Shown: positions 47,596-60,501 of the stretch, piece by piece
Layout of the letters: each line of letters begins with the position of its first letter
Position numbering within the stretch: position 1 is the first letter of the stretch
Assembly (NCBI RefSeq): GCF_009856605.1
Contig: NZ_CP047242.1
Span: 1,920,001-1,984,000 of the forward strand
Source of the DNA: Trichormus variabilis 0441
GTDB taxonomy: Bacteria > Cyanobacteriota > Cyanobacteriia > Cyanobacteriales > Nostocaceae
Reading direction: 5' to 3'
Length of the DNA stretch: 64,000 bases
Notes under the pieces: model-generated
Told to the model about the DNA's origin: nothing
The model's database searches: none
The model's input: the letters and a program-made list of their open reading frames with translations, nothing else
Position numbers and translations under genes: made by a program

Positions 47596-50475
47596 TTATA
47601 ACTCACTTTTACCAAAAACCGTCTCATCATAGGTCTCGTGATCTAAAATTGTAGGCATAATTACTTCACCTTCCAAGCTTTCAATTAAGCCGGTATCGAG
47701 ACTATTTTGATTCCAAAACTTAGTTTTCTCTTTGGTACTAGAAATACTAAGGTAATATTGCTTGGATAATAAACTTTTCACTACTTGAAATTGTTCTAGA
47801 GAAAATAATGCGCCGTGGAATTGGGCAATTTCTCTTTCAGCCTCCGTGAGGGGAACATCACATAAACAAGCATTGGTAAGATTGACGGTTTCCAAGCTGA
47901 CATCGGTGAGATTTGCGCCGGCTAAGTTAGCACCAGCTAAATTTGCGTTATTTAAGTTAGCACCAGCTAAATTTGCATTCACCAATACAGCATCGCATAA
48001 ATTTGCTTGTTCAAGATTTGCGCCAGTCAGGACGACTGACGATAAAAAAGCCCCTGAAAGGTTGATTTTAGCTAAAGATTGGGAACAGATGCGCTTTATG
48101 AGAGTGTTACTTCCAGAAAAAGAGGCTTTAGCTAACAACATCATCATTGTTTGGGGGTAAAACTCACTGACATTTGCTGGATTACCACAAGGACTAAAAG
48201 CAACTTGAATGTCTCGACAAATTGCAGCTAGCAATAAAAATACATTTATTCCCACATTTGTATTCACCTGCTCAACATTCACAAGATTTTGTAAGCTGTG
48301 AAAATAGGGTAGTGCTGTGTGGGCAATGCTTTCATCTAACCAACGTCCTTGACACCAACCACGCCAAAAAGATTCTAGTCGTCGTAATAAAATAGGTTTT
48401 TGCTGGGTTTGTAATGCGGCGATGACTAATCCCTCAATTTCTGGTGTAATAATGCCGTAGCCTAGTAAATTGTAGAGATGCTGGGCAACACTGCTAGGAG
48501 TATTGAAAATAAACGTTTCTGTTCCGTAAACATCTTCTTGGCACTGGGTTAGCCTTTGCAGTTGGGTTGCTACAGCTTCAGCACAGAGATATTCACCGAT
48601 TTGTGAGTGGGAAAACTCTACTTTAACTGTTAGTTGTGCTTTGTCATTAGCTTGTGGCAACTGACTGCTAACACAATAACGGAAATATAAAGCCGGGAGA
48701 GTGTTTGTATTGAATTCTCCAGTTAAGGTAACTTGATGACGATCGCCATGTAAAATTTTGAGAGCGATCGCCTGCATTTGTGCAATCAGGTCTTGGGGAT
48801 GGTATTCTCCTAGTAAATTGGTGATTGCTTCTGGTGTACGGTGAATATGAGCAGTTCCCGGACGTAATAGCATTGTCCTCATTCCCGCAGTCAACGGATA
48901 CCCCAGCAACCATCGTTTTAGGCGAGAGTAAATTTCCCAATGGAGAGAAAACTTGGCATTTTTTTGCAATATTTCATCATCTAATAGTCCGTCGCGGTGG
49001 AAAACACCCAATAAATGCAACATTAATGGTTGACGTACTAAATGAGATAGTTCAGATAAGTGAGACTTATTAGCAAATAATCCTGCTTGTTTTAAGAATG
49101 TAAAAAAGTTTTGGGAAATGGGTAACGACTGGAATAATGCCCATTGTTGAAACCATTGTTTTAACTGGTTTACTTCTAAAGGTTGAATTTTAATAGTCCG
49201 CCATTGGAGGGGGATTTCTGAAGTAATTTCCTCTACTGTGTGAGAGCAACTAGTCAAGACAATTTTATGTTGTTCTTGGGATTGAAATTGGAGTAACTGT
49301 TGAATAAAAATTTGTTTATCTCTATTTCCCTGATGAGAAGAGGGAAGTTCATCTAATCCATCTAGTAATAAAACACACCGATTATTTGTTTGCTCTAACC
49401 AAGCGGATAAGTTGATATGAACATTGAATGTAAAACCAGAATTGAGGGTTTCCAGTAAACTTTTACCATATTTAATATCCCGCAACCGAATCAGTATGGG
49501 CAGCCAATGAGGATAAAGCTTTAATGCTACTTCTGCCGCCCAAATCTGACAAAAACTAGTTTTACCATAACCAGGTTCTGATTCAATTACAGCAATAGTT
49601 TCTAAATCAATAAGTTGTTTTTCTACCCATATTTTTAAATCAATAGACTGTCCATCATTAGGTTCTTGAGGTACACCAGATAAAGGGACATAAATATTCT
49701 TCAGGGCAAAATATTCCATCAATAATGGTGTACTGAGAGTTTGCAGCAAACTAGCGCGATACTTCTCTTTATATAAGTCAATATTTAAAACATCTTCTAA
49801 AGTTCCTATCCGGAAAAATTTTTGTAGCTGAGCTAAAGGTGCAGGGTTTTGAGCAATGATTTTTATCAGGTATCCGGGGAGAGAATTATCTAAACGCTGA
49901 GTTAATAATTTAGCTTCTAACTCCTCCGCACCATTGGCCATTAACCAGGCTACAGTAGCATGATTCATTTGTTGTACTAGTAATGAATCTGCCACGGAAA
50001 TCAGCGCTTGTTCGGCTTGAGTATCAGTTAATTTACCAGGGGAGAGAGTTTTTAATAATCCTTGGAGTTGAGGATCTGAGATAATTATTGTGGCTAGTGC
50101 AGGTATTTTGGCACGATTTAGCCAAGGTCTTTTTAATTGTTCTTCTTGGAGTAAAACTTGTTCTAACGCCAATAGGTAAGCAATTTGGAATGCTAACCAA
50201 GTACCTTCATTACGTTTGAGGGCTTTTTTTTGGCTGAGGTGACGGAGAAGATGTTCGCTTAAAGAAGCAAGCACAGAAATTTCTTCCTCGACTGTGCCTA
50301 ATGGTAATTGCAGCACTTCTGCTAACGTACAAATATCCAACGGCATCAGGCTTTTAAGTTCCATATCCTGAACGATACGATAGGCAATACCTGCCAGTTG
50401 CCCAGAAGCAAATGTTTTTATATCGCTGATTTCTATCTGGCGTTCTGCCAACCATTGCCGGAGACTGAGGTTCAT
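47596..50475 (-). CDS. NACHT NTPase with C-terminal pentapeptide repeats
   Basis: A 959-residue STAND-type NTPase. Residues 1-260 are helical, without a recognised domain. The NACHT domain has Walker A in ESEPGYGKTSF (about 298-308) and Walker B in CVLLLDGLDELP (about 367-378). A helical region follows, with HSQIGEYLCAEAVATQL as in NLR proteins. About 80 residues of A(N/D)LxxA-type pentapeptide repeats lie near 815-890, followed by a short unique tail. Bacterial NACHT proteins can be phage-defence sensors, while others are regulatory; the N-terminal region here would be the effector or signalling part, unknown. Monocistronic, minus strand. Confidence 0.82.
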   Translation of the reverse strand: MNLSLRQWLAERQIEISDIKTFASGQLAGIAYRIVQDMELKSLMPLDICTLAEVLQLPLGTVEEEISVLASLSEHLLRHLSQKKALKRNEGTWLAFQIAYLLALEQVLLQEEQLKRPWLNRAKIPALATIIISDPQLQGLLKTLSPGKLTDTQAEQALISVADSLLVQQMNHATVAWLMANGAEELEAKLLTQRLDNSLPGYLIKIIAQNPAPLAQLQKFFRIGTLEDVLNIDLYKEKYRASLLQTLSTPLLMEYFALKNIYVPLSGVPQEPNDGQSIDLKIWVEKQLIDLETIAVIESEPGYGKTSFCQIWAAEVALKLYPHWLPILIRLRDIKYGKSLLETLNSGFTFNVHINLSAWLEQTNNRCVLLLDGLDELPSSHQGNRDKQIFIQQLLQFQSQEQHKIVLTSCSHTVEEITSEIPLQWRTIKIQPLEVNQLKQWFQQWALFQSLPISQNFFTFLKQAGLFANKSHLSELSHLVRQPLMLHLLGVFHRDGLLDDEILQKNAKFSLHWEIYSRLKRWLLGYPLTAGMRTMLLRPGTAHIHRTPEAITNLLGEYHPQDLIAQMQAIALKILHGDRHQVTLTGEFNTNTLPALYFRYCVSSQLPQANDKAQLTVKVEFSHSQIGEYLCAEAVATQLQRLTQCQEDVYGTETFIFNTPSSVAQHLYNLLGYGIITPEIEGLVIAALQTQQKPILLRRLESFWRGWCQGRWLDESIAHTALPYFHSLQNLVNVEQVNTNVGINVFLLLAAICRDIQVAFSPCGNPANVSEFYPQTMMMLLAKASFSGSNTLIKRICSQSLAKINLSGAFLSSVVLTGANLEQANLCDAVLVNANLAGANLNNANLAGANLAGANLTDVSLETVNLTNACLCDVPLTEAEREIAQFHGALFSLEQFQVVKSLLSKQYYLSISSTKEKTKFWNQNSLDTGLIESLEGEVIMPTILDHETYDETVFGKSEL

Positions 50476-54924: not shown

Positions 54925-55480
54925 GAATTGAGTCGTTTGTTATATCAATTCTCTATAAAATTGCGTCAAATAAACCATCCGTAGAGACGCGATTTATCGC
55001 GTCTTCTTCACCCAATTTTTGACCTCTCCCCCAACCCCTCTCCGACGCGGAGAGGGGAGCAAAGACAATAAAAGATTAGTATTAATTATCAAAAAAATAA
55101 AATTAGTGACGAAATTTATTTTTTTAATTATCAAAAACTCAGTTTCGTGACCAAATCAATTGCATTTGCCACCACACGAATTAGTTTCGTGACCAAATCA
55201 ATTGTATTCGCCACCACACGAATTAGTTTCGTGACCAAATCAATTGTATTCGCCACCACACGAATTAGTTTCGTGACCAAATCAATTGTATTTGCCACCA
55301 CACGAATTAGTTTCGTGACCAAATCAATTGCATTTGCCACCACAGGAATTGAAATCACCACCAAACAACTCTGATCGTCAAGAAATCAACACGAGCAAAA
55401 GCTGACAGAATTGACACTCAGCAAGAATCCTCATCTTTCCGTCATAATGGGATTGTGTTATGTGATACTTGCACCTGCTC
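54925..55480. other. Repeat-rich gap between mobA and the CHAT gene
   Basis: Contains the palindrome GACGCGATTTATCGCGTC (54986-55003), a GC-rich hairpin CCCCTCTCCGACGCGGAGAGGGG (55035-55057), and the 42-bp minisatellite at 55141-55350. Both flanking genes are transcribed away from it, so it also holds their promoters. Confidence 0.6.
55141..55350. repeat. Five tandem 42-bp repeats
   Basis: Unit agtttcgtgaccaaatcaattg followed by (t/c)att(t/c)gccaccacacgaatt, starting at 55141, 55183, 55225, 55267 and 55309. Copies differ only at two or three pyrimidine positions. Because 42 is a multiple of three, both strands stay open (14-residue repeats such as VVANTIDLVTKLIR on the minus strand). There are no unique spacers, so this is not a CRISPR array. 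I cannot tell whether it is translated. Confidence 0.85.
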
Positions 55481-58327
55481 ATGAACGAACAGCGTTTACA
55501 GGCTTATTATCAGCTAATTCAAACCCTGCTAGATTGCCCTAGTGGGGAAGAACCAGAGATATTAGCAGCGAATACAGAATTGCTAGATGCTGACTTTGTG
55601 CAGGTGGTAGGATTAGCAGCAGAGCATTTTGCCCAGCAGGGAGAAGAAAATAGAGCCAATTGGTTGAGAAACTTAGCAACATATCTCACCACCCCAGAAA
55701 CGCCCCCCATCACCGAAGCAGATATAGAGACTTACTCGCCATTTATCTTAGAAGTATTGCGAGCAACAGCAGAAAGTAACGGCAATCCTGAAGTAATTTA
55801 CCTGTTGCTGGCAGCTAATACCGATAAACTAAATCGTATCTTTGCAGAATTACTGCGCCGTTGGGCAACAAATACCTTAGCAGAAGCAGAACCAGATACA
55901 GCAACATCCATCGCTAATGTGATTGGTAACTTTAGTAATCTGATTCAGCAATTTCCCTTGGGTAGCAAAGCCAACAACATGGAAATTGCCATTACTGGCT
56001 ACGAAATCATCCAAACTATTTACACTCGCCCAGCCTATCCTGAAAAATGGGCAACGACGCAAAATAATCTGGCGACTGCTTACTCTGACAGAATATTAGG
56101 AAACAGAGGGGAGAATCTGGAGGAGGCGATCGCTGCTTATTCTGCGGCTCTGGAAGTTTATACCCGCACTGATTTTCCTGTAGATTGGGCTGGAACGCAA
56201 AATAATCTGGCGATTGCTTACCGTAACAGAATATTAGGAAACAGAGGGGAGAATCTGGAGAAGGCGATCGCTGCTTATTCTGCGGCTCTGGAAGTTTATA
56301 CCCGCACTGATTTTCCTGAAAAATGGGCAACTATACAAAATAATCTGGCGACTGCTTACTTATACAGAATATTAGGAAACAGAGGGGAGAATCTGGAGAA
56401 GGCCATCGCTGTTTATTCTGCGGCTCTGGAAGTTTATACCCGCACTGATTTTCCTGAAAAATGGGCAATGACGCAAAATAATCTGGCGATTGCTTACTCT
56501 GACAGAATATTAGGAAACAGAGGGGAGAATCTGGAGCAGGCGATCGCTGCTTATTCTGCGGCTCTGGAAGTTTATACCCGCACTGATTTTCCTCAAAAAT
56601 GGGCAATGACGCAAAATAATCTGGGGAATGCTTACCGTAACAGAATATTAGGAAACAGAGGGGAGAATCTGGAGCAGGCGATCGCTGCTTATTCTGCGGC
56701 TCTGGAAGTTTATACCCGCACTGATTTTCCTCAAAATCATGCAGAAACTTTGTTTAATCTCGGCATACTATACCAAGAAGAGAAACAATTTAACTTAGCT
56801 TACGATACCTTTGCCCAAGCAATAGCAACCGTCGAAGCTTTACGGGGTGAAATTAATGCAGGTGATAATTTAGGTGAAGAAGGCAAGCGCAAACAAGCAG
56901 AAGAATGGAATAAACTTTATAGACGCATGATAGAAGTTTGCCTAGCATTGGGCAAAGACACTGAAGCGATAGAATATATTGAACGCAGCAAAACCCGCTA
57001 TTTAGTAGAACTATTAAGCAAAGCAGACTCAATCAATCAAAAAAATCTCCCTGATATAGACAGCAAAATCCGTTTTGCAGAAATTCAAAATCTTTTAGAC
57101 GATGAAACAGTTATTATCCAATGGTATATATTTACTGATTGTTTTCGTGCCTTCATCATCACTAAAAACCATCAACCAATCATTTGGCAATCAGCCTCAG
57201 AAAATTTAGATAATTTAGAAGAATGGACTGATAATTATCTGCAAATCTACGGTGAAGATAAACAAAAATGGCGATATCAGCTAAACGAGCAACTAACCAA
57301 ACTCACTCAAATCCTTCACCTCAATGAGATAATTTCTCTCATCTCCTCCCAATACAAAAAACTGATTGTCATTCCCCATCGTTATTTACATTTATTCCCA
57401 CTCCATGCTGTACCCCTAGCTAATAAACACTCATCACAACCAGAATATTTATTTGATAGATTTCCTCATGGCGTAAGTTATGCACCAAGTAATCAACTTT
57501 TACGATTTACTCAACGGCGATTGCAAAAATTAGCCAACTTAGAATTAAATCCCTTCAGTAATTTATTTGCCATTCAAAACCCCACTAACGATTTAGCCTT
57601 CACCGATATTGAAGTGGAAACCATAGCCGCAGATTTTCAACCCCAACAAATCCTCAAACATCACCAAGCCACCAAAGCCGCATTAACAGCAACACCAACT
57701 AATGAAACCCTCAGCAATTCCCAATGGCTGCATTTCTCTTGTCACGGTTACTTTAACTTCCGTTCCCCCTTAAAATCTGGTTTACAGTTAGCCGATGCAG
57801 TAACCTCTAACATTCCCAGCACCATCAACTCATCACGCTACCTGAGAATTGACAACGAAACAGCAATAGATTTAGATAAATGCCTCACCCTAGAAGATAT
57901 CTTTCAATTAAACTTAAATAACTGTCGCCTCGTCTGTCTGTCCGCTTGCGAAACTGGTTTTATTGACTATACAAATAGCAGCGATGAATATATAGGCTTG
58001 GCAAGTGGTTTTATTCGTGCTGGTGCAACTAACATGATTAGTAGTTTATGGGCAGTTAGCGACTTTCACACAGCTTTATTAATGATTAAATTTTATGAAA
58101 ACTTACCACTTTATCAATATAATGTGTCCTTAGCCTTGAACCATACCCAAACATGGTTACGCCGAGCAACGCAATCACAAATTATAGACTGGGTGCAAAG
58201 TAAAACCAATATGCAAAACACACAACAGCAAAAAATCATTGGCTTTTTACAACAATATAAACCTGAACAACAACCATTTAAAAGACCAGAATTTTGGGCT
58301 GCTTTTTCTGCTATTTCTCCAGTTTAG
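55481..58327 (+). CDS. CHAT-domain protease with TPR-like repeats
   Basis: A 948-residue protein in three parts. Residues 1-185 are helical. Residues about 186-418 are five nearly identical 46-residue TPR-like repeats (each with W..TQNNL..AY..RILGNRGENLE.AI..YSAALEVYTR), plus a divergent last one. The C-terminus (about 590-948) is a CHAT caspase-like domain with His755 in HFSCHGYF and Cys823 in LSACETG, both catalytic residues intact. I use ATG 55481; an in-frame TTG lies 12 bases upstream. Two small-system genes follow on the same strand. CHAT-TPR proteins often act as proteases in predicted conflict or cell-death systems of multicellular bacteria; no substrate is known here. Confidence 0.88.
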   Translation: MNEQRLQAYYQLIQTLLDCPSGEEPEILAANTELLDADFVQVVGLAAEHFAQQGEENRANWLRNLATYLTTPETPPITEADIETYSPFILEVLRATAESNGNPEVIYLLLAANTDKLNRIFAELLRRWATNTLAEAEPDTATSIANVIGNFSNLIQQFPLGSKANNMEIAITGYEIIQTIYTRPAYPEKWATTQNNLATAYSDRILGNRGENLEEAIAAYSAALEVYTRTDFPVDWAGTQNNLAIAYRNRILGNRGENLEKAIAAYSAALEVYTRTDFPEKWATIQNNLATAYLYRILGNRGENLEKAIAVYSAALEVYTRTDFPEKWAMTQNNLAIAYSDRILGNRGENLEQAIAAYSAALEVYTRTDFPQKWAMTQNNLGNAYRNRILGNRGENLEQAIAAYSAALEVYTRTDFPQNHAETLFNLGILYQEEKQFNLAYDTFAQAIATVEALRGEINAGDNLGEEGKRKQAEEWNKLYRRMIEVCLALGKDTEAIEYIERSKTRYLVELLSKADSINQKNLPDIDSKIRFAEIQNLLDDETVIIQWYIFTDCFRAFIITKNHQPIIWQSASENLDNLEEWTDNYLQIYGEDKQKWRYQLNEQLTKLTQILHLNEIISLISSQYKKLIVIPHRYLHLFPLHAVPLANKHSSQPEYLFDRFPHGVSYAPSNQLLRFTQRRLQKLANLELNPFSNLFAIQNPTNDLAFTDIEVETIAADFQPQQILKHHQATKAALTATPTNETLSNSQWLHFSCHGYFNFRSPLKSGLQLADAVTSNIPSTINSSRYLRIDNETAIDLDKCLTLEDIFQLNLNNCRLVCLSACETGFIDYTNSSDEYIGLASGFIRAGATNMISSLWAVSDFHTALLMIKFYENLPLYQYNVSLALNHTQTWLRRATQSQIIDWVQSKTNMQNTQQQKIIGFLQQYKPEQQPFKRPEFWAAFSAISPV
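56035..56735 (+). repeat. 138-bp tandem repeats within the CHAT gene
   Basis: Five copies of a 138-base unit (46 codons) with near-identical DNA, for example the invariant stretches gaatattaggaaacagaggg and gcggctctggaagtttatac. The low divergence indicates recent expansion or gene conversion. The array produces long minus-strand shadow frames. Confidence 0.9.
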
Positions 58328-58714
58328 TTTTTATCTTCTCAATAGAATAAAGATTAAATTAGTAGCAAATTAAACGCAGACAAACGTAGATTTTTACCCC
58401 TTCCTAACCTTCCCCTTGTAAAGGGTACGGTGTACACACAAGTCTTATAAAGTTGCCCAAAAACGTTTTGATCCCCCCTAACCCCCCTTAAAAAAGGGGG
58501 AACAAGAATCAAAGTCCCCCTTTTGAAGGGGGATTTAGGGGGATCAAACCACATTTTGCACCCAGCACAAAGAAGTGGGTAATAGATAGCTTTACAAGGG
58601 GGGGACTAATGTAATTAAAATCACAGTTAATCACTTTTGAAACATCCTCTTATATAAAATTTGGTATAACTTGTAAAATATCCTCAACAATTAACCAACT
58701 CAAAAACAAAAGCT
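58328..58714. other. Gap between the CHAT gene and the downstream pair
   Basis: A 387-base gap holding a dispersed inverted-repeat element at 58470-58547. AT-rich sequence near 58640-58690 may hold a promoter for the next gene, so co-transcription with CHAT is not assured. Confidence 0.5.
58470..58547. repeat. GATCCCCC...GGGGGATC inverted repeat element
   Basis: Outer arms gatccccccta / ttagggggatc with inner C and G runs form a long stem. It is a known type of dispersed repeat in Nostoc-like genomes. Confidence 0.75.
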
Positions 58715-59059
58715 ATGGAACCAGATAAACTCATTCAAGCATTTACCCAAGTGGTGAGAAAGCAAGATTATGTTTTCTCGCCAGAAGCTATTGTAGCCAT
58801 CCCCGAATTACTAAACAAACTTGCTCAATTAGAAACCCAACCACCAGATTTATTTGCAGAAGCTATTCGCCAATGGTATCTCGACTATGAAGATGTGAGA
58901 GACGCTGTATTAATTGAAGAAAGAGAAATTGAGAAAATCAGCAAAAGTAAGCCAGAAATCCAAGAAAATACTCAAGAAAATCGCTATCGAGTAGTACAAG
59001 ATGAACTCAAGAAACTAGAAGAGAGAAAAACAAGCAATAGCCAAACCAAGCAACCATGA
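58715..59059 (+). CDS. Small acidic helical protein, possible CATRA-associated small protein
   Basis: A 114-residue protein starting MEPDKLIQAFTQVVRKQDYVFSPEAI. It is helical, followed by a charged coiled-coil tail (about 70-114, Glu/Lys/Gln rich). Its stop codon overlaps the start of the next gene in ATGA (59056-59059), so the two are translationally coupled. Size, position and the partner genes (CHAT-TPR upstream, membrane-tailed protein downstream) fit the small protein of CATRA conflict systems, as I remember them from comparative-genomics literature. That name is tentative; no motif proves it. Confidence 0.55.
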   Translation: MEPDKLIQAFTQVVRKQDYVFSPEAIVAIPELLNKLAQLETQPPDLFAEAIRQWYLDYEDVRDAVLIEEREIEKISKSKPEIQENTQENRYRVVQDELKKLEERKTSNSQTKQP

Positions 59060-60501
59060 AAATTTATGCACCGAATATTCATTTATTCGCTTTTCAATTG
59101 TACAAAAGTGCCAGTAGTGACATAAACAATTCATCACCAGATAAAGACTTTCTTTGGCATCAGGCTAACGCTATAGCCAGCGCAACTTTACACCAATATC
59201 TACAACTCCATCAACGTCTTGATGTCAATAAAAACCCAGATAACCCCCGTGTCGATTTACTAAAAGACTCAGAAGTAATCGATGATAACTACGCTGTGGA
59301 TTTGCAGGGTAACATTTCTCTCAACCAAACCCAAGACTTATTAATTAAAGGCTTTGCTCATCCCTTAAGAATATATGATAGTTACAGTTTATGGCTAAAT
59401 CTCCGCCGTCCCGAAAAGGAAAATAACAATCAGACAGATGATGTAGACATTACTTTTTTACGTCAATTAAATCAAAATAATTGCTTCATAGTTCCCGCAA
59501 ATCCTTTATTTCTTGGTCAAACTCTGCTAATTACTGGCTGGTTAACAGGCGCAAAAGACAGACAAATTATCCAGCAAATAGCCAATGAGTGTTTAAAATC
59601 TTTCTTACCTGATAACTATCCTCTACCACCATTCAACCGCCAAGGCGAGTTATTTGGTAGTCCAATTTTTGAATACGGTTTATTTAGCCAATTAACTAAT
59701 TATCAACACGTTCTAATATGGTTATTTACTGACGAACAAGCAGGCGATAAATTCAATCAATGTTATCAAGAATTACTAGATTTATTTTTCTTCCGCACCA
59801 AAGCAGTTAAAGCTTATAAAGATAGTCGTCAAATATATCAAGAACTAGATTCAGCCTATAGAAAAGTCGAAGATACAATTGATAAAGTTCCCAAATTAGA
59901 TGATACTCAATATGATAATAAAATCAACTTAAGTAACTTGAAAAACCAGTTAAAAGCTTTACCCCAAATATCATTAACATACACACGCTTACTACGAAAC
60001 TTAGAAGAATATCAAAATACCATCGCTATCAATACTTATAATTATAACGAGAGACTACAACAAATTAAAAGCATCTTCGCCAATGAAGATATCAGCTTTC
60101 TAGAAACATTTAGCCAAAAAAACTGCGCTTATTTCCAACAACAAATTAATGGCGACTTGGGTTATTTTCGCCACGGCTCAGAATTGTTAGGTAAAGCCAT
60201 AGACACAATTCGCGGTATTGTGGAAATAGAACAAGCAGAGCGCGATGTAGAACAAGCAAAACGCGATCGCACTCTAGAAACCACAATCCAAATAATAGGT
60301 ATCGGCTTTGGTGGCGGCGCAATAGCTTCCGGTGTCATTGTTTCCCACATCGACAAAATCAAGCAACCCTTAGCCGCATTATCTCCTGATAACCAACCCC
60401 ATCCCTTTTTCGCCTCGTCAATTCTCAGTATTCTCGCAGTCTTACTCTTTAGCGGCGTAGGCTGGTTCATAAGCTGGTTAATAACGAAATGGCGAAACTA
60501 G
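59056..60501 (+). CDS. Protein with two C-terminal membrane helices, probable CATRA conflict-system component
   Basis: A 481-residue protein. Residues 1-250 are a globular domain of no family I can name with certainty (YAPNIHLFAFQLYKS..., FLGQTLLITGWLTG...). Residues 250-400 are helical/coiled coil (YRKVEDTIDKVPKL..., VEIEQAERDVEQAKRDR). Two hydrophobic helices lie at about 415-435 (IIGIGFGGGAIASGVIV) and 452-476 (ILSILAVLLFSGVGWFISWLI), with a short loop between. The tail resembles CorA-type topology, but the CorA GMN motif is absent. It overlaps the upstream gene by four bases. Together with CHAT-TPR it probably forms a conflict system in which this is a membrane-acting or sensing part; that is inference. 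Confidence 0.55.
   Translation: MKIYAPNIHLFAFQLYKSASSDINNSSPDKDFLWHQANAIASATLHQYLQLHQRLDVNKNPDNPRVDLLKDSEVIDDNYAVDLQGNISLNQTQDLLIKGFAHPLRIYDSYSLWLNLRRPEKENNNQTDDVDITFLRQLNQNNCFIVPANPLFLGQTLLITGWLTGAKDRQIIQQIANECLKSFLPDNYPLPPFNRQGELFGSPIFEYGLFSQLTNYQHVLIWLFTDEQAGDKFNQCYQELLDLFFFRTKAVKAYKDSRQIYQELDSAYRKVEDTIDKVPKLDDTQYDNKINLSNLKNQLKALPQISLTYTRLLRNLEEYQNTIAINTYNYNERLQQIKSIFANEDISFLETFSQKNCAYFQQQINGDLGYFRHGSELLGKAIDTIRGIVEIEQAERDVEQAKRDRTLETTIQIIGIGFGGGAIASGVIVSHIDKIKQPLAALSPDNQPHPFFASSILSILAVLLFSGVGWFISWLITKWRN

Follow-up and report, generated by a model that had tools for sequence, protein, structure and literature searches.

The stretch of DNA analysed here (the window, 64,000 nucleotides of Trichormus variabilis 0441, contig NZ_CP047242.1, positions 1,920,001 to 1,984,000) contains three consecutive genes on its forward strand, which encode a tetratricopeptide repeat (TPR) protein with a CHAT protease domain, a small helical protein and a membrane protein of predicted CorA-like architecture. 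This three-gene unit is a real, widespread and modular system of multicellular cyanobacteria. We interpret it as a strain-variable conflict or cell-death operon in which the CHAT protease would trigger the membrane effector, a reading to which we assign a probability of about 0.6. The genes and their parts are, in window coordinates:

55481..58327, + strand: TPR-CHAT protease gene (P0001, 948 amino acids), predicted sensor and caspase-like protease (Pfam CHAT, TPR_12)
56038..56736, + strand: tandem array of near-identical TPR-like repeats of 46 amino acids, 138 bp in 5.1 copies with 91% matches (TRF)
57293..58312, + strand: CHAT protease domain, residues 605-944 (Pfam PF12770)
57743..57745, + strand: codon of the catalytic His755, conserved in operon CHATs
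57947..57949, + strand: codon of the catalytic Cys823, conserved in operon CHATs
58470..58555, no strand: high-copy palindromic element of 86 nt, inside the gap between CHAT and small gene and repeated elsewhere in the genome
58715..59059, + strand: gene of the small helical protein (P0002, 114 amino acids; family hidden Markov model), predicted to act between protease and effector as adaptor or regulator
59056..60501, + strand: gene of the membrane effector (P0003, 481 amino acids; AlphaFold2 (AF2) pLDDT 88.1, pTM 0.80)
59056..59760, + strand: N-terminal alpha/beta domain of the effector, residues 1-235 (model), an unannotated module that is found on other effectors elsewhere
59764..60282, + strand: long helical bundle or stalk, residues 237-409
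60283..60351, + strand: first membrane helix, about residues 410-432 (hydropathy, model)
60403..60489, + strand: second membrane helix, about residues 450-478 (hydropathy, model)

The reading frame of the CHAT gene opens with a TTG at 55469, and the ATG at 55481 was adopted as its start. An earlier note on this DNA, made from the letters alone, had described the two genes behind the CHAT gene as translationally coupled. This is borne out for the small gene and the effector gene, which overlap by 4 nt, the sole overlap among the three genes, but not for the CHAT gene, whose stop codon is separated from the small gene by 387 nt and the palindromic element. Homologous loci have, at the median, 109 nt between CHAT and small gene (lower quartile 7). 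The palindromic element gave 38 match rows in its own genome, several of which represent both strands of one place.

Homologues of the effector were found in 118 of 198 related genomes. A sample of 386 genomes from the phylum, in each of which four candidates were scored, yielded them in 47, without exception members of the same order. In a species-wide collection, all 80 named contigs listed carried cyanobacterial names (80 of 181 confirmed places). To the window we added 80 fetched regions (79 hand-chosen places and the paralogue in the own genome) and 80 named loci; the resulting 160 effector open reading frames (ORFs) were reduced to 138 at an identity threshold of 97%, and at least 3 kb of upstream sequence was available for 119 of them. 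At 93 of the 119 non-redundant loci the CHAT gene, the small gene and the membrane gene follow each other in this order on one strand, the small gene lying between the other two in all 93 loci that have both a CHAT and a small gene. The remaining loci have a CHAT only (1, the second operon of the own genome, L092), a small gene only (2) or neither (23), so that the small gene tracks the CHAT rather than the effector as such. By our estimate from the 17 CHAT matches in the own 7.1-Mb genome, a same-strand CHAT within 3 kb upstream is expected by chance at about 0.4% of positions, rising to about 1% in CHAT-rich genomes (an estimate with at most about 33 scored candidates per genome; 20 of the 59 genomes searched have at least 30 CHAT matches). 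The three-gene order thus exceeds chance, with 93 of 119 loci against roughly 0.4-1% expected, and the recurrent co-occurrence, whose absence would have refuted the reading of the earlier note by that note's own terms, is observed. Two of the 93 effectors share a single CHAT (L057), the L193 region has the order effector, small gene, CHAT, and any fourth gene is common to at most 12 of 107 operons. The identity matrices of the three proteins correlate with r of 0.75-0.89 over 89 loci (permutation maximum 0.14), a correlation from which shared phylogeny has not been removed. At two places, L069 and L070, effector homologues follow TPR proteins and no CHAT was found; a Pfam TPR-S match was obtained in L069, the one of the two that was scanned.

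The three parts also occur joined in single proteins. In one genome, which is present as the same place in two collections, the effector is fused to the small domain, located behind the membrane helices (L057:8793-10658 on the - strand, identical with L144). P0205 and P0206 combine the effector module with a CHAT, and P0208, a single protein of a metagenome-assembled genome, carries the small domain in addition to effector module and CHAT. Together with the co-occurrence of the three genes, these fusions support what the earlier note saw in the locus, a module of multicellular bacteria that combines a sensor/protease with a membrane effector. The catalytic Cys is replaced by Ser in the fused CHATs of all three proteins, which are therefore probably inactive and may be pseudoproteases acting as scaffolds.

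The genomic position of the operon is variable within the genus. The thioredoxin-domain (DUF255) gene that adjoins it is present in 13 of 13 genomes of the genus searched, and its flank was read in the 12 other genomes (ten fetched regions, L032 and L033). Eight sister genomes have a slot empty of the operon, with mobA following about 80-580 nt after the DUF255 gene (measured between aligned pieces). In two genomes (G003 and G005) the operon adjoins the DUF255 gene, and mobA was not seen beyond it, the contig ending in G003 and no mobA lying within 5.4 kb in G005. In another, G006, the slot (L268 3381-8678) is occupied by genes for a NACHT-HEAT-caspase C14 protein, a HepT-like protein and a DUF433/DUF5615 pair, and the 9.3 kb read in G011 revealed no mobA. 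Such alternation at one slot, between vacancy, a CHAT operon and a NACHT-caspase gene, is characteristic of genes for defence or conflict, and the operon is strain-variable in the same manner.

The protease is intact in its catalytic residues. The CHAT domain of the window protein matches Pfam with E = 1.1e-45 (156.7 bits, cut-off 24) and its repeats match TPR_12 with E = 6.2e-22, so that with its His and Cys and its N-terminal TPRs the protein belongs to the TPR-CHAT proteases. The catalytic residues His755 and Cys823, which the earlier note had named, were confirmed at these positions. Of the 106 operon CHAT ORFs, 94 encode a complete domain as a separate protein, and every one of these has the dyad; the other 12, whose domain is partial, were set aside. 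To our knowledge, most of the many CHAT proteases of filamentous cyanobacteria have no assigned substrate. At eight loci (L042, L071, L075, L100, L106, L160, L189 and L191) the CHAT lies in pieces though the contig continues, which may reflect either decay or assembly error.

The TPR array, correctly described before as expanding, is changing fast. The five 46-residue units of the window are 86-96% identical in pairwise nucleotide comparison, and their differences are concentrated on a few codons. With positions numbered according to the Pfam TPR profile (position 1 of TPR_2 being residue 421), amino acid changes fall on positions 2, 3, 8, 9, 12, 13, 25, 29, 44 and 45 (the left edge of the first unit excepted), the bulk of them on 2, 9, 12, 13, 25, 44 and 45. 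In TPR proteins the ligand groove is lined by positions 2, 5, 9, 12 and 13. The same pattern extends across the operons: adjacent units are at least 80% identical in 57 of 106 operon CHAT ORFs, and the 238 such pairs contain 899 non-silent versus 30 silent codon differences at positions 2, 9, 12, 13, 37, 44 and 45, compared with 808 versus 647 at the remaining positions. At a threshold of 90% the contrast persists (327 versus 9 at the seven positions, 157 versus 162 elsewhere). Independent of any motif, neighbouring units at least 80% identical were found in 62 of 79 operon CHATs of at least 700 amino acids. The arrays fit receptors with highly conserved diversifying repeats in which replacements are focused on the binding surface. 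They resemble in this the fungal NLRs, whose TPR, ANK and WD repeats are described as near-identical, changing in number and under diversifying selection (PMC4986451).

The effector ends, as stated earlier, in two membrane helices, which both hydropathy and the AF2 model place behind a long helical stalk. A Foldseek search against the PDB returned CorA, MRS2 or ZntB at all of ranks 1-13, but with low TM-scores of 0.13-0.38, and for the protein, which lacks the GMN selectivity filter, a CorA-like architecture is predicted. A Pfam scan gave no CorA match for P0003. The membrane part is evidently exchangeable: homologues without the helices have other domains behind the cytoplasmic module, which reaches to about profile positions 380-414. 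These domains are bDLD1 with Trypsin_2 (L192, L193), bDLD1 alone (L193), bDLD1 with Metallophos and in some cases SAVED, PNP_UDP either without bDLD1 or together with it, and CHAT. Because the helices are replaced by death-like, protease, phosphoesterase and phosphorylase domains, the cytoplasmic module probably serves for docking, and the membrane pair is probably one executioner among several. In P0190 and P0196 the module is joined to a metallophosphoesterase and SAVED, P0190 additionally containing bDLD1, a domain composition that suggests a link to cyclic-nucleotide signalling. The membrane part of the effector-small fusion of L057 has a weak match, below cut-off, to Saf_2TM, the SAVED-fused 2TM effector domain (E = 0.0039).

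For the small protein the AF2 model shows five helices (pLDDT 78.6), with low confidence at residues 78-85, which probably form a flexible stretch. Pfam has no family for P0002, and among the matches listed for 60 of its relatives (25 of 70) only scattered weak ones occur. In L092, the second operon of the own genome, a paralogous CHAT and effector flank a 140-amino-acid ORF without small-family match.

From these parts we propose the following course of events. The TPR array, whose diversification is observed, would recognise a non-self or danger ligand with a rapidly changing surface, and binding of this ligand would activate the CHAT cysteine protease, consistent with its conserved dyad. 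The small helical protein, connected to protease and effector by co-occurrence and fusions, would bridge the two or be itself the cleaved piece. The CHAT would act on the effector or on the small protein, upon which the effector would open or assemble into a leaky membrane pore, and this pore might kill or arrest the cell before an invader or an incompatible partner spreads along the filament. The cytoplasmic module may serve as a general docking part, in keeping with the observed exchange by which it elsewhere carries death-like domains and soluble effectors instead of helices.

These steps are plausible because there are precedents in three systems. In Podospora a TPR-bearing CHAT protease activates a gasdermin (PMC12881547), and a TPR-CHAT protease gene likewise stands beside a membrane-killing effector; the window differs in that its effector is a two-helix membrane protein of predicted CorA-like architecture and in that a third, small helical gene is present. 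No gasdermin was found for P0003 in Pfam or in the Foldseek top 50, nor for 75 effector members among the Pfam families listed (25 of 64). In Craspase (type III-E), the TPR-CHAT protease Csx29 cleaves the operon protein Csx30 (PMC11127173), and the window similarly combines a TPR-CHAT protease with an operon protein. The NCBIfam Csx29 model matches the window CHAT with E = 1e-20, but with 74.2 bits against a cut-off of 300. CorA effectors of type III-B CRISPR, finally, are gated by SAM-AMP and proposed to open a pore (PMC10600005). They resemble the effector, as predicted, in having a soluble N-terminal domain on a CorA-type membrane segment and in the pore opening expected of them, whereas in the window a CHAT protease and its small adaptor, not a nucleotide, would serve as trigger; this is a likeness of build and not of sequence profile.

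The same genes could be read as a toxin with its antidote, the small protein being an antitoxin-like inhibitor of the membrane protein which the CHAT degrades, freeing the effector without ever cutting it. The small gene lies just upstream of the effector gene, overlapping it in 30 of 95 cases and lying within 50 nt in 38 of 95, residues 78-85 would offer a flexible site, and Csx29 sets the example of a TPR-CHAT cleaving an operon protein (PMC11127173). Against this, the 23 of 119 effectors lacking both small gene and CHAT indicate that a partnerless effector is tolerated, unless these copies are inactive, and the fusion of the small domain to the effector (L057) and to a CHAT (P0208) suits an adaptor better. 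We therefore consider an inhibitor unlikely.

A regulated metal transporter, that is, a CorA-type channel with a housekeeping role whose abundance or gating is tuned by the CHAT, would agree with the best structural matches being CorA, MRS2 and ZntB. It is very improbable given that the YGMN motif occurs after residue 404 in none of 75 aligned effector members (one has FGLN and 67 lack any G-x-N) versus a YGMN in every one of the 29 complete ORFs for CorA from relatives (a truncated one was omitted), that the genome already has an ordinary CorA (L226), that the membrane part is swapped for protease and nucleotide-acting domains in homologues and that the operon is patchy within one genus. An equally poor fit is a developmental or cell-division module akin to HetF, a CHAT protein of heterocyst-forming cyanobacteria: the unit also occurs in Oscillatoria, Planktothrix, Microcoleus and Moorena, which form no heterocysts, and its slot is strain-variable, with a NACHT-caspase gene in its place in a sister genome. 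What speaks for such a role is that Anabaena requires HetF, a CHAT-domain protein, both to initiate heterocysts and to divide its cells (PMC8406250). The outcome would be the same, by a different pore, if the effector were an alpha-pore former of the ClyA/Nhe type; this is scarcely to be expected, as the CorA family takes Foldseek ranks 1-13 and ClyA first appears at rank 20 (E = 0.093), and as the CorA topology agrees with the model, in which a very long helix is followed by the two C-terminal membrane helices and their short loop.

Several observations weigh against a CHAT-triggered membrane effector. Almost a fifth of the effectors (the 23 loci above) have neither CHAT nor small gene, and simple hydropathy of the 93 linked effectors gave two membrane stretches in 71, one in 19, three in 2 and none in 1. 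The kinship with CorA is a structural one only, with low TM-scores of the 13 best Foldseek matches; the better VIA matches cover mainly helices, and comparison of the effector profile with cyanobacterial CorA by hhalign yielded a probability of 7.5%. Of the 12 partial-domain CHAT ORFs, four (L035, L165, L168 and L175) begin within about 250 nt of a sequence end and the other eight appear broken or split. In 15 same-genome paralogue pairs, one of which shares its CHAT, effector and CHAT divergence correlate weakly (r = 0.21). Near-identical repeats are also present outside the operon, where 4 of the 14 CHATs used as controls and 12 of 21 further ones from the fetched regions have them (compared with the 62 of 79 in operons), so that the sensor signature is not unique to it. 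PADLOC has no family for the small and the 481-amino-acid protein and matches the TPR part to PDC-S19 with 24.5 bits.

In the earlier note the locus had been called CATRA-type. This assignment is not supported: the Pfam profiles CATRA-N, CATRA-C and CATASP have no match at the window operon, CATASP none at the small gene, even at E<=10, and the rows for CATRA-N and CATRA-C in the own genome are weak, below cut-off and located elsewhere. CATRA-N was found in none of 59 related genomes, a result that is weak alone since the controls were silent too. Burroughs and Aravind reportedly described the CATRA ternary conflict systems in 2020, one of whose three components is said to be a small protein. 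CATRA, spelled out as "Caspase and TPR repeat-associated" (PMC12657218), is a caspase-dependent ternary system (PMC8195603), and the likeness is one of organisation only (caspase-linked, TPR-associated, ternary), as opposed to the profiles, which the window operon leaves unmatched. The bDLD1, trypsin, PNP and SAVED parts belong to a conflict-system network of multicellular bacteria (PMC8195603, PMC7159879), and in effector homologues they are found on the very cytoplasmic module described here. The operon differs from this death-like/EAD network in that Pfam gave no bDLD or EAD match in P0001-P0003, bDLD1 occurring only in effector homologues, and in that a CHAT-linked module common to membrane and soluble effectors was not met in the available portions of that literature. 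Comparison of the small family with the bDLD1 region by hhalign gave no match (probability 0.8%). A literature search of incomplete coverage found no description of the three-gene unit. A caspase-like protease with a membrane executioner is a known kind of system, of which this would be a version with CHAT, small protein and predicted CorA-like effector.

By analogy, the unit looks like a cell-suicide switch akin to fungal and animal immune cell death. More tentatively, it may be a bacterial counterpart of fungal NLR/gasdermin allorecognition, in which repeat duplication reshuffles the peptide-binding groove of TPR-CHAT receptors and these, acting through a dedicated helical adaptor, open a CorA-fold channel by proteolysis, while the same docking module plugs in death-domain proteases, phosphoesterases or phosphorylases; we put this bolder form at clearly less than even odds. 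Filamentous cyanobacteria would then have a general platform of the kind "receptor plus interchangeable executioner". A CHAT-triggered membrane effector would in itself connect a CorA-type membrane effector with the caspase-like proteases of bacteria and bear on the trigger and the executioner of cyanobacterial programmed death. As the protease comes in one genetic unit with its candidate partner and candidate executioner, and as the sensor reveals which of its residues change, substrate, trigger and outcome are directly testable in a laboratory strain.

The surroundings of the operon contain two further features. Upstream of the CHAT gene lies a tandem repeat of 42 bp in 5 copies with 97% matches (55141-55350). 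At a distance of 5 kb from the operon, the window encodes an immune-type NACHT protein with an N-terminal NNH3 domain and pentapeptide repeats (47596-50475, - strand), a relative of which, with 74% identity, is present in another genome (G002, L269).

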